Part shown: positions 27,964 through 34,499 of the stretch, piece by piece
Layout of the letters: each line of letters starts with the position of its first letter
Numbering within the stretch: the first letter of the stretch is position 1
Origin: Pedobacter psychrophilus
Lineage (GTDB): Bacteria; Bacteroidota; Bacteroidia; Sphingobacteriales; Sphingobacteriaceae
NCBI RefSeq assembly: GCF_001652725.1
Contig: NZ_LWHJ01000031.1
Location: 62,001 to 126,000, forward strand
Reading direction: 5' to 3'
Length of the DNA stretch: 64,000 nucleotides
Made by a program: the position numbers and the translations under genes
Notes under the pieces: model-generated
What the model was told of the DNA's origin: nothing
Databases searched by the model: none
The model's input: the letters and a program-made list of their open reading frames with translations, nothing else

Positions 27964-28296
27964 CTATATGGTATATAAAAGTTTACCCATTCGTTCTATA
28001 TGCGATAGAAGATCAGGATTATCAATATTAGAGAAAATGCTAATGTCAAAGGTGTAAGGAAGATATAAATCGTCCAAAGCTAAATCTAAATTATATTTTG
28101 TATTTAAATCTAAATAATCGCCTATCAAAGTAATATCAATATCAGAATATGTTTTTGCACTTCCCTTTGCCCTTGAACCATACAGTAAAACTTGCTCAAT
28201 TTTGGAAAAAGAAGTAAAAACCAACCTAATTTTGTTCAAATCTTCATTAGATAAGCCAATCTCTTCTGCCCTACAATAATTTTCCTTGATTACCAT
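27964..28296 (-). CDS. MNT nucleotidyltransferase, partner of the HEPN gene
   Basis: A 110-residue minimal nucleotidyltransferase: LLYGSRAKGSAKTYSDIDITL carries the GSRAxG...SDxD catalytic motif. In HEPN/MNT pairs the MNT enzyme modifies (AMPylates) the HEPN protein and blocks its RNase activity. Its ATG lies inside the HEPN reading frame (26 bp overlap), so translation is coupled. Together they look like a type VII toxin-antitoxin module (family knowledge, not tested here). Confidence 0.88.
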   Translation of the reverse strand: MVIKENYCRAEEIGLSNEDLNKIRLVFTSFSKIEQVLLYGSRAKGSAKTYSDIDITLIGDYLDLNTKYNLDLALDDLYLPYTFDISIFSNIDNPDLLSHIERMGKLLYTI

Positions 28297-28753
28297 TTAT
28301 TATATGTTCTATTTTATTCTCGAAATTTACGAATAGCGGATAATAAACCTTTATAACTATTTTAAAAATCTCATCGGCTGTTTCAGCATTATAAGTATGA
28401 GAAGTTTCGTTTCTGCTCAAAATCATGTTCATCCATTCTTGAGCATTGGTAATTAAATTAACCTGAGCTGCATATCTTGTGGCATCTTTACTTCCTCTAA
28501 TTTCTGCATTGCCTTGATCTTCTGCAAAATCTTGCATTACCTTCCATGCTAACTCATGCGTAAACTCAAAACTTTGTATCAATCCTTGTTTTAAAATATC
28601 TGCGATGCTTTTGGTAACTTCTTCAAAAACTTCTTCGTCTTCAAAATCCAAATTTTCATAAGATGCTTTGATATACCCGATATTTTGAGAAAGTTGATTT
28701 AAAGCCTTTCGGTAATTGCTGAAACGCTGTTGCCATCTTATATCTTTTTTCAT
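28271..28753 (-). CDS. HEPN-domain protein (HI0074-type), candidate RNase toxin
   Basis: A 160-residue, all-helical protein from ATG 28753; a TTG at 28771 would add six residues. The R-x4-H motif of HEPN ribonucleases is present (RNETSH near residue 123), preceded by WMNMILS and followed by TYNAETADEIF, matching the nucleotidyltransferase substrate-binding (HI0074/TIGR01987) family. It is followed by the MNT gene with a 26 bp overlap. The pair sits between coaD and mnmE, two housekeeping genes, as a small insertion. Confidence 0.87.
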   Translation of the reverse strand: MKKDIRWQQRFSNYRKALNQLSQNIGYIKASYENLDFEDEEVFEEVTKSIADILKQGLIQSFEFTHELAWKVMQDFAEDQGNAEIRGSKDATRYAAQVNLITNAQEWMNMILSRNETSHTYNAETADEIFKIVIKVYYPLFVNFENKIEHIINGNQGKLL

Positions 28754-28807
28754 CTGTAATCTCTTTTTCAATGATTAAATATAGATATTTTTTAATTTTC
28801 AGTGGAT

Positions 28808-30824: not shown

Positions 30825-32078
30825 ATGTCTTTATTTCAAAAATCTGTATTAAACAAATATTACAACGAACTTTCAATTTCTGAAATTCAAGATTCTTTTA
30901 AACGCTTCCAAAGCGTATTTAATAACCCAGCAAAGCAAGAAAACATTTTAAATGCAAAAGAAGAACAATATCAAGAAGGATTTTTAAGAGAACTATTTGT
31001 TAATATTTTAGGGTATAGACTTTATCCAGATGAAAATCATAACCTGATAACTGAACAAAAGAACGAGGGCAACAGCAAAAAAGCAGACGGAGCAATTTTA
31101 AACGGTTTAGTAGTTACCGCAGTAATAGAATTGAAATCTACCAAAACAATTGATTTGGCGAATATAGAAAGCCAGGCATTTGGATATAAAAACAATCAGC
31201 AAGAATGTAAATACGTAATTACTTCAAACTTTAAAAAGTTAAGATTCTACATTGATAACGCAGTTGAGTTTTTAGAGTTTGATTTATTCAATCTCGCTTT
31301 TGAGGATTTTAAATTAATGTGGGTTTGCTTAAGCGCAAATTATCTTTTAAAAAATATTCCTGCTCAAATAAAAGAAGCATCCAACCATCAGGAAGAAAAG
31401 ATAACAAAGCAACTCTATTCAGATTATGCAAAGTTTAGGAATGAATTATTTAACGACATCTGCATTAAAAATACAGATCATGATAAATTATTCTTATTCA
31501 AGAAAACGCAGAAATTATTAGATCGGTTTTTGTTTTTATTCTTTGCTGAAGATAGAGGTTTAGTTGCTCCTAACTGGACAAGAAAGATTTTACAGGATTG
31601 GACAGATTTAAAAGATAGATATGATAATTATATCCCACTTTATACAAGATTTCGTAAAAACTTCGATTATTTAAATACTGGTTATCATGGCAAAGACGGT
31701 GAAATATTTGCTTATAATGGCGGTTTATTTGCACCTGATGAGGTTTTAGACAGTTTAATTATTGAAGATGATTTGCTTTACAAAGGTTCTTTAAAATTAA
31801 GCAATTATGATTTTGATAGTGAAGTTGATGTAAATATTTTAGGGCATATTTTTGAACATTCTTTAAATGAGATTGACGAAATACAAGCTAGTTTAGAAGA
31901 AGTTAAGGTTGAAAAAGTAACCAAAAGAAAGAAAGACGGCGTTTTTTATACTCCTAAATATATTACTAAATACATAGTAGAAAATACCATAGGCACATTA
32001 TGTAAAGATGAAAAAGTAAAACTTCAACTCATTGAAGAGGATTTTGAATTTATAGATGCAAAGCAGGTAAAAAACTAA
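30825..32078 (+). CDS. Type IIG restriction-modification enzyme, N-terminal (nuclease) part, frameshifted
   Basis: 417 residues that form the first half of a combined restriction-methyltransferase protein of the Eco57I type. A PD-(D/E)xK-like nuclease site is visible (KKADGAIL then VIELKST, near 87-107), followed by helical linker regions and the lead-in to the methyltransferase (KKDGVFYTPKYITKYIVENTIG). The frame ends at 32076-32078 (TAA), one codon after GTA-AAA-AAC, while the rest of the protein continues directly in the -1 frame. With seven A instead of six the two halves would be one protein of about 990 residues. Confidence 0.85.
   Translation: MSLFQKSVLNKYYNELSISEIQDSFKRFQSVFNNPAKQENILNAKEEQYQEGFLRELFVNILGYRLYPDENHNLITEQKNEGNSKKADGAILNGLVVTAVIELKSTKTIDLANIESQAFGYKNNQQECKYVITSNFKKLRFYIDNAVEFLEFDLFNLAFEDFKLMWVCLSANYLLKNIPAQIKEASNHQEEKITKQLYSDYAKFRNELFNDICIKNTDHDKLFLFKKTQKLLDRFLFLFFAEDRGLVAPNWTRKILQDWTDLKDRYDNYIPLYTRFRKNFDYLNTGYHGKDGEIFAYNGGLFAPDEVLDSLIIEDDLLYKGSLKLSNYDFDSEVDVNILGHIFEHSLNEIDEIQASLEEVKVEKVTKRKKDGVFYTPKYITKYIVENTIGTLCKDEKVKLQLIEEDFEFIDAKQVKN
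32069..32075 (+). other. A6-C slippery/phase-variable tract in the type IIG gene
   Basis: The heptamer A AAA AAC is in the reading phase of the upstream half (GTA AAA AAC TAA), the classic X XXY YYZ arrangement for -1 ribosomal frameshifting, and the downstream half is in exactly the -1 frame. Equally, adding one A to the tract would fuse the frames. I see no strong downstream hairpin. Confidence 0.6.
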
Positions 32079-33790
32079 CTGATAAAAGAAAAGAATTAAA
32101 TCAAAAAATTGACGATTACAGAAATTGGCTTTTAGAATTAAAAATTGTAGACCCAGCTTGTGGCTCGGGTGCGTTTTTAAACCAAGCTTTAGACTTTTTG
32201 ATTTTAGAACATTCAAAATTAGATGAATTAAGGGGTAGGCTTTTAGGTGGAAGTATTATTTTATCTGATGTTGAAACCAGCATTTTAGAAAATAACCTTT
32301 ACGGAGTTGATATAAATGAAGAAGCTGTTGAAATAGCAAAACTTTCTTTGTGGTTGCGTACAGCCAGAAAAGGCCGTAAACTAAACTCTCTAAATAATAA
32401 TTTAAAGTGCGGTAATTCTTTAATTGATGATATTAAAGTAGCAGGAGATAAAGCGTTTAATTGGGATTTAGAGTTTACAGCCGTTTTTGAAAAAGGCGGT
32501 TTTGACGTGGTTATTGGAAATCCGCCTTATGTAGTTTATATAAAGTCTATTGTAGGGGAGAATACTATTAATTATTTATCCGAAAGATATTCGTTTGCTG
32601 AGTACAATCCCAACACATATGCTTTATTTACTGAATTAGCAATTAGTAAAATTTTAAAATATAAAGGGCAATTAGGATTTATTATACCATCTTCTTGGCT
32701 TGATAATAAATATTTTTCAAGGATGAGAAACGGTGTTTATTCTCAATATGTTAGACAAATTATAAATTTAAAAAATTCGGCTTTTGATGAAATAGTTGAA
32801 ACTTTAATTCTCATACTTGATAAGGAAAAAGAGAAAGAAAAAGTTGTTGTTATTCCACTGTTCAATTTAGGTAATATAGAGTCGCAAACTTTAGATATTT
32901 CTATTCTCAAAAAAGGAGTTAATCCTTTTATTAAGAAAAGCGATTCTATAACAGACAAATTAGATGCATGTTCAAAATTATCTGATAATGCAACAGTTTA
33001 TAGAGGTTTAGAAACTAGAGATAATTCAAAGTGGATTTTTTCTGAAAAAATAAATGATTCTCATAAACCAATTTTATTAGGAAAAGATATAAATAGATAT
33101 TCTACCTATTTCTCTGGAAGCTATGTGAATTTTGTTAAGAAAGAAATGAAAAGCAATGCGAATGAAGATTTTTTTAAAAGTCAAAAAATCTTGATGCGCA
33201 GAACTGGAAACAAAATTACAGCAGATATTGAATTGTTAGGGTATTTTGCGTTAAAAAACTGTTATTTAATTATTCCAAAACGTGGTTTTATTTATTCAAT
33301 ATTAGCTCAATTAAATTCAAAGCTTATAGGATATTATCATAAAATGCAATCTAGTGGAGAAAATAAGGCTTTTGCACAGTTCAAAGGAGAATATGTTTCC
33401 TCATTACCATGTTTATTAGAAAAAAAAGAAATAGAAAGTGAATTTGAAGAGAAAATAATTTTTCTAAAAGAATTGATGAAAAAAGAGAATGAAATTTTGA
33501 ACTCCCTAAGTTCTATTATTTCACTTCGTTATAAAAATATTATTCAATCTTTAAAACTTTCAAAATGGAACGAATTAACAGCAAAAGAATTTTTTAATGA
33601 ATTTGAAAAACAAAAAGTTAAACTTTCTTTAAATGAACAATCTGAATTGCTTCAATATTTTGAAGCACAAAAGATTAAAGCAATTGATATTAAATCTCAA
33701 ATACATCAAACAGAAAATGAAATTGATACAATGGTTTATAAGCTTTATGAATTAACTGAAAAAGAAATTGAAATGGTTGAGGCTATTTAA
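32075..33790 (+). CDS. Type IIG restriction-modification enzyme, methyltransferase and recognition part
   Basis: Continuation in the -1 frame. It reads LTDKRKELNQ and then SAM-binding motif I DPACGSGAFLNQAL (about 32153-32194), GVDINEEAVEIAKLSLWLRTA, and the adenine-N6 catalytic motif IV IGNPPYV (about 32515-32535). A target-recognition region of some 350 residues completes the protein. Without the frameshift the first usable start (TTG 32198) is already past motif I, so the fragment alone could not bind SAM. The next gene, 33798, follows after 7 bp. Confidence 0.85.
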   Translation, partial: LTDKRKELNQKIDDYRNWLLELKIVDPACGSGAFLNQALDFLILEHSKLDELRGRLLGGSIILSDVETSILENNLYGVDINEEAVEIAKLSLWLRTARKGRKLNSLNNNLKCGNSLIDDIKVAGDKAFNWDLEFTAVFEKGGFDVVIGNPPYVVYIKSIVGENTINYLSERYSFAEYNPNTYALFTELAISKILKYKGQLGFIIPSSWLDNKYFSRMRNGVYSQYVRQIINLKNSAFDEIVETLILILDKEKEKEKVVVIPLFNLGNIESQTLDISILKKGVNPFIKKSDSITDKLDACSKLSDNATVYRGLETRDNSKWIFSEKINDSHKPILLGKDINRYSTYFSGSYVNFVKKEMKSNANEDFFKSQKILMRRTGNKITADIELLGYFALKNCYLIIPKRGFIYSILAQLNSKLIGYYHKMQSSGENKAFAQFKGEYVSSLPCLLEKKEIESEFEEKIIFLKELMKKENEILNSLSSIISLRYKNIIQSLKLSKWNELTAKEFFNEFEKQKVKLSLNEQSELLQYFEAQKIKAIDIKSQIHQTENEIDTMVYKLYELTEKEIEMVEAI

Positions 33791-33797
33791 TTAAGAA

Positions 33798-34499
33798 ATG
33801 GAAGGAGAATCAATCCCTTATATAGATAGTGTATTTATGAATATAGATAATCCATCGATACCCTATAACTGGAGGACAAGAAAACAACCAATTTATCGCT
33901 TATTAAATAAAAAACAATGGTTAGATAACTTCTTTGATAGTGGAGAATTAAATTTAAGTTGCTTCTCGAAATTCAGAAATTATCCAAATGAAATACAAGG
34001 AGATAGAGAAGAAGGAGACGCCTTGATTTGGTTTGAAGACAAAAAGGGCGATACTCATGCTATAAAATATGAAGCAGGGTTAAATAGTTACATTCTTTGT
34101 TGTTCATTAGAATTAAATGAAAGGATTATAAAAGATTTTAATGCAATTGGAGCAATTAAAATTAATAATCCAACTTTTTTTAGTCTTGAAGTAATGTCAA
34201 AAATTGAAAATTGTACTCAAGGAATTGAAGGTATTTGCAATTATGAAGACAGCAGAATTTTTCATAACAAGTCAGAAAAATTAAAAAGCCTACTAGATAA
34301 TAAAGACTTCATTAATGACCCTTTATTCATTAACCAATTTTTAATTGAGACAGGGGAAAACGAGTTATTTCTGAAAAAGAATCTTTACGAATATCAAAAA
34401 GAATATAGAATGCTTTGGTTTACTACAAATAAAATTGAGGAATCAATTATTATAAAATGTCCAGATGCAATAAGATTCTGTGAAAGAATAAATTTTTAA
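33798..34499 (+). CDS. Unknown protein coupled to the type IIG gene
   Basis: A 233-residue soluble protein, 7 bp behind the restriction-modification gene. It has a short motif-like opening (WLDNFFDSGELNLSCFSKFRN followed by EIQGDREEGDAL) and a late YQKEYRMLWF segment. This is reminiscent of DUF2971-like accessory proteins often found with phage-defence genes, but the resemblance is weak. It may be an accessory of the restriction system (inference from spacing). Confidence 0.6.
   Translation: MEGESIPYIDSVFMNIDNPSIPYNWRTRKQPIYRLLNKKQWLDNFFDSGELNLSCFSKFRNYPNEIQGDREEGDALIWFEDKKGDTHAIKYEAGLNSYILCCSLELNERIIKDFNAIGAIKINNPTFFSLEVMSKIENCTQGIEGICNYEDSRIFHNKSEKLKSLLDNKDFINDPLFINQFLIETGENELFLKKNLYEYQKEYRMLWFTTNKIEESIIIKCPDAIRFCERINF

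Follow-up and report, generated by a model that had tools for sequence, protein, structure and literature searches.

Organization of the Type IIG restriction-modification locus

The window analysed here, a stretch of 64,000 nucleotides from Pedobacter psychrophilus, carries a Type IIG restriction-modification (R-M) gene that is present in the assembly as two open frames, the second at -1 relative to the first. The features of the gene are as follows.

30825-32078, + strand: 0-frame ORF of 417 aa, covering the nuclease/helical (N-terminal) half of the Type IIG R-M enzyme
31086-31136, + strand: candidate PD-(D/E)XK nuclease motif D-G-A ... E-L-K, common to relatives
32058-32060, + strand: likeliest frame-change site, with one base fewer than in relatives (gap scan and tblastx segments)
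32060-33790, + strand: -1-frame half with the methyltransferase and specificity parts, 576 aa plus stop, no internal stops
32069-32075, + strand: A AAA AAC heptamer with its A6 tract (A6 = 32069-32074), in phase with the 0-frame ORF
32150-32176, + strand: SAM motif I DPACGSGAF, conserved in relatives
32519-32530, + strand: catalytic motif IV NPPY
32540-33620, + strand: target-recognition region (approximate), from the identity profile and the TaqI_C domain

The 0-frame ORF is closed by a TAA stop directly after gtA AAA AAC, and its residues after ~32060 lie outside the ancestral frame; the methyltransferase half runs to a stop codon at 33788-33790. The pattern D-G-(A/G)...E-L-K, which we take to be a PD-(D/E)XK nuclease motif, is shared by the window gene with each of the 13 relatives compared at this point, and NPPY is presumably motif IV of an N6-adenine methyltransferase. 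As the earliest ATG, GTG or TTG in the methyltransferase half is the TTG at 32198, which follows motif I, the second half alone could not be expected to bind SAM, in agreement with an earlier sequence-only reading of this DNA, which had noted that the second half lacks motif I unless a shift occurs.

Pfam searches with the second half returned Eco57I (135 bits), TaqI_C (76 bits), MmeI_Mtase (50.3 against a cut-off of 27) and also N6_Mtase, while the first half matched MmeI_N (20.1) and MmeI_hel (24.9), both under the cut-off of 27. Thus, with the methyltransferase domain above and the N-terminal and helical domains below cut-off, Pfam did not place the gene over its whole length in the MmeI/Type IIL subfamily. 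The PADLOC Type IIG profile PDLC03609 (1066 positions) was matched by the two halves collinearly, at positions 1-409 and then 421-674, with 562 and 307 bits. The nuclease, motifs I and IV and the specificity domain follow one another in order, in one frame in relatives and in two in the assembly, and besides this single frame change no further lesion was seen along the 2.9 kb gene. The gene is most likely an ordinary single-chain Type IIG R-M gene (nuclease, helical linker, N6-adenine methyltransferase and TaqI-like specificity domain) of ~990 residues when whole, and the region is single in the assembly, with no second or alternative copy in its own genome. The split of a Type IIG gene by a -1 frame change, as first claimed from the sequence, was thus confirmed by the ORF map, Pfam and PDLC03609.

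Directly 3' of the R-M gene lies an ORF of 233 aa (33798-34499, + strand) without Pfam, NCBIfam or PADLOC matches at E 0.001. On the other side, at 27964-28771 on the - strand, a nucleotidyltransferase gene (Polbeta/NTP_transf_2) adjoins and overlaps that of a nucleotidyltransferase substrate-binding protein (PF08780), a pair which we take to resemble toxin-antitoxin systems of the MNT/HEPN type.

Relatives of the gene

Within the genus, four other genomes had a match among the 18 searched (own included), three of them close and one weak. The three close relatives (G065, G108 and G123) shared 77-84% identity with the N-terminal half over 411 aa and had open frames of 1010-1041 aa. Matches were found in 12 of 251 genomes of the family-level sample, the own one counted, and in 9 of 400 genomes of the order-level sample at E below 1e-60, eight of these being relatives whose open frames measure 1010-1217 aa; GTDB contigs supplied 14 loci. 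The comparison of homologues, to which the sequence-only reading had looked for a decision between its options, returned a full-length single frame in 19 of the 21 relatives examined, a count in which the pooled sets may overlap beyond the identity of G065 and L016, and none of the 21 breaks at the A tract or at the window's own site. The two short relatives were the Moraxella locus L025, interrupted at an 11-base G tract, and L023, whose frame breaks some way 3' of a stretch of unknown bases. Left out of the 21 were L016 (identical to G065), L029 (114 residues matched), L011-L015 (weak matches) and G438 (a Moraxella locus whose frame is interrupted at the G tract). Plasmid and phage homologues (37 and 4 records, respectively) all fell below 60% identity and were left out of the further comparison. 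In G113, the nearest of five genomes by MnmE (91%), the N-terminal half found no match, and MnmE was the only gene that aligned well in the stretch compared.

A 40-residue identity profile against G065, G108 and G123 gave 75-97% for the methyltransferase core and 12-33% for the specificity region (32540-33620), from which it follows that the target site probably differs from species to species. The drop in identity at the specificity region is abrupt, a sign of target-recognition domain replacement or of fast divergence between species.

Place of the frame change

A single one-base gap was moved along 260 bases of alignment with each close relative. The best gap fell at 32058-32059 with G065 (200 matches of 260, against 197 when the gap is set at its best position within the A tract) and with G123 (201 against 196), and at 32059 with G108 (193 against 189). 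With the more distant G286 it was blurred to 32052-32055 (167 against 162), still upstream of the tract. Of the 10 positions 32060-32069, G065, G108, G123 and G286 matched at 6, 6, 8 and 8 with the gap upstream, against 3, 2, 2 and 3 with the gap in the A tract. Assuming 72% identity, the log10 likelihood ratios in favour of the upstream placement were 2.2-4.4, values which are not to be summed because the relatives are not mutually independent. In tblastx comparisons with L031 and L049, a segment at 30825-32063 was followed in the other frame by one at 32060-32533 or 32060-32530; with L030 the next methyltransferase-frame segment (32012-32659) overlapped the first and did not sharpen the site. 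Since the methyltransferase frame matches relatives already from 32060 (Lys-Ala), the frame change is placed at ~32058-32060.

Read in the ancestral frame, A6 encodes Lys-Lys and the last base of the heptamer opens a Leu codon, and G123 has Lys-Lys-Leu at the same position in other codons. Six A is the length that the ancestral frame requires, and the missing base lies ~10 positions upstream. The A tract, which the sequence-only reading had taken for the junction of the two halves, was rejected as such on the alignment with four relatives and the ends of the tblastx segments. Upstream gap placement and segment ends together argue that A6 is most likely not the site at which the base was lost.

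The A AAA AAC heptamer

An in-phase A AAA AAC with its A6 is present, as had been described, at 32069-32075. In the 49 ORFs of the window (48.2 kb) there are 8 in-phase copies of this heptamer and 141 A/T runs of 6 or more, and the R-M gene region itself holds 15 such runs, including A8 (33420, the longest) and T7 (33169). The heptamer is not remarkable in the window's genes; the frame break itself is really present in the assembly. The linker in which the heptamer lies is lysine-rich, relatives having 4-9 Lys there over 45 codons. An in-phase A AAA AAN also occurs within this linker in 4 of the 21 relatives (A AAA AAC in one of them), all four being full length. No stimulatory stem-loop was found downstream of the heptamer in three segments folded against shuffles (z -0.53, 0.48 and -0.30, in a model that does not include pseudoknots), and a frame transition at this place was seen in 0 of the 21 relatives.

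According to PMC4066793, A AAA AAC belongs in E. coli to the low-efficiency heptamers, although it is very likely used by some IS elements. Under the classification scheme of PMC3711429, a programmed frameshift is expected to occupy a site that is conserved across a homologue cluster, and one that stands alone is expected to be an indel or an error; the window case is an isolated one.

Other frame breaks in the assembly

To find genes whose open frame shifts at a stop, 846,800 bases (the window and 59 other stretches), or 21% of the genome, were scanned ab initio. Five candidates came from a first pass, which covered 464 kb, and 19 from a wider, looser one; of these 19, 16 were set aside by eye as ordinary gene ends beside a following gene or as antisense frames. 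The three accepted as broken genes were the R-M gene, rpoC and a sulfatase gene, and all three change frame in the same direction. As the scan detected 244 of 600 simulated deletions, about 7 breaks may lie in the 846,800-base sample. The two further breaks are the following.

L057:15633-15674 (G000:C11, ~85.6 kb): rpoC split, scan position L057:15674
L117:7529-7650 (G000:C33), - strand: split of a sulfatase-type gene in the same direction

The rpoC gene (TIGR02386) has a single locus in its own genome, where it is divided between two open frames (958 and 522), while in same-genus relatives it forms one frame of 1430-1441 aa in 8 of 8; all 8 place the one-base gap at L057:15633-15636. RNA polymerase beta-prime is essential, and the break is therefore almost surely absent from the living cell. 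The same kind of break as in the R-M gene is thus found in a single-copy gene that cannot be broken. Of the five matched relatives of the sulfatase, four have open frames of 709-736 aa, with the match ending at residues 434-436, the point at which the frame changes in the window's genome; the fifth is 471 aa. One error in the assembly, that in rpoC, is shown beyond reasonable doubt. The assembly consists of 33 contigs, many of them of 0.6-2.7 kb, a size spectrum that suggests short-read assembly; in such assemblies deletions outside homopolymers are rare. With single-base losses in this assembly even in rpoC, other frame breaks there call for equal caution.

Origin of the split

An intact Type IIG gene probably reads here as two frames through a sequencing or assembly deletion of one base at ~32058-32060. 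The base would be missing from the sequence and not from the cell, in which the gene would be one continuous frame. As the rpoC break indicates that the assembly makes such errors, the R-M break needs no other cause, and "broken or mis-sequenced", one of the options that the sequence-only reading had offered, emerged as the best supported. Confidence in an error is held down by the short-read-like contigs, since errors of this kind are rare in them, and true inactivation is frequent among R-M genes. The tentative second reading is that one base was truly and recently lost from the gene, which would leave a young pseudogene and a truncated 417-residue nuclease half as its product. R-M genes are dispensable, so such an inactivating deletion could have occurred; the truncated half has neither methyltransferase nor specificity domain, and therefore neither activity would be expected of it. 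The single lesion, the otherwise undamaged halves and the strong constraint on the N-terminal half (dN/dS 0.03-0.10 in three window comparisons, with dS saturated) would all fit a young pseudogene, and inactivation of methyltransferase genes by frameshift is well documented, for instance in H. pylori (PMC3936762). The rpoC break, however, cannot be a viable mutation, and the breaks in this assembly are thus not to be taken at face value. We infer an error in preference to a mutation.

That ribosomes shift to -1 on A AAA AAC, in a programmed or an incidental way, and so yield a fraction of full-length enzyme appears improbable. In its favour are the in-phase position of the heptamer, the entry of a -1 shift on it into the methyltransferase frame, the stop that follows immediately and, as mentioned above, the very likely use of A AAA AAC, a low-efficiency heptamer in E. 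coli, by some IS elements; however, the relatives do without it, those with A AAA AAN in the linker included, the base was lost upstream of it, the sequence downstream folds no better than shuffles and the heptamer is common in the window's genes. Programmed frameshifting, one of the original proposals, thus went unsupported, as no relative shifts there and no stimulator was seen. Still less credible is that the sequence is correct and that A AAA AAC, lying just 3' of a real deletion, provides an accidental rescue (a 'savior' frameshift) in which slipping ribosomes make a little full-length R-M enzyme and the broken gene stays partly functional; a real split rescued in this way would exemplify the correction of an indel during translation. 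The least likely reading of all is phase variation, by which slipped-strand mispairing in the A tract would toggle the enzyme. Phase-variable Type IIG enzymes as such are already known, cj0031c of Campylobacter jejuni and JHP1272 of H. pylori being described in PMC4889913 and PMC3936762, respectively, and two Moraxella members of the same Type IIG family have out-of-frame G11 and G12 tracts. Nevertheless, the 6-base A run is an ordinary one in this gene and in the window, the frame change lies at 32058-32060, upstream of it and not in a hypermutable repeat, the six A are of ancestral coding length and no relative breaks there. The suggested A-tract switch therefore lacks support, and a tempting claim of recoding or phase variation is removed as unsupported.

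With the sequencing or assembly deletion as the likeliest cause of the split, one full-length enzyme is probably made in the living cell. Type IIG enzymes are established as single chains that recognise a site, methylate adenine in it and cut it when unmethylated. By analogy with the class, the C-terminal specificity region would recognise the site and the enzyme would methylate its target and cut unmethylated DNA.

Comparison with known systems

Among 22 Moraxella genomes, 3 have a member of this Type IIG family at E below 1e-60. Those of G419 (G11, L025:7666-7676) and G438 (G12, L055) carry their G tracts just 5' of the F-D-V-V-I-G motif IV region and are out of frame, with 574 and 575 aa open, respectively; that of G435 has no G tract and is open to 1039 aa. 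Type III phasevarions of Moraxella are described in PMC13076061, and no published description of the Type IIG poly-G tract was found in the literature searched. Judging from their anatomy, the Moraxella poly-G tracts are likely an on/off switch of a phase-variable kind that is absent from the window gene.

Like cj0031c of C. jejuni and JHP1272 of H. pylori, the window gene belongs to the Type IIG class and has its frame interrupted within the gene; those genes, however, switch at homopolymeric or simple repeats, whereas the base loss in the window gene lies outside the A6 run. With bacterial -1 frameshift cassettes, such as those of IS elements and of dnaX, it shares an in-phase X XXY YYZ heptamer, and it differs from them in the low efficiency of that heptamer, in having no stimulator that could be found and in a frame transition that is not conserved.

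MmeI, of Type IIL (PDB 5hr4), has the same architecture, and sequence comparison with solved structures matched it alone (E 9e-7, residues 13-167 of the methyltransferase half); none matched the N-terminal half. The window gene resembles it in an MmeI_Mtase match above cut-off, in contrast to its N-terminal and helical matches, which stay under the Pfam cut-off. To the Type IIG profile PDLC03609 the gene is alike in the collinear match of both halves, and unlike in lying in two frames and in its strongly diverged specificity region.
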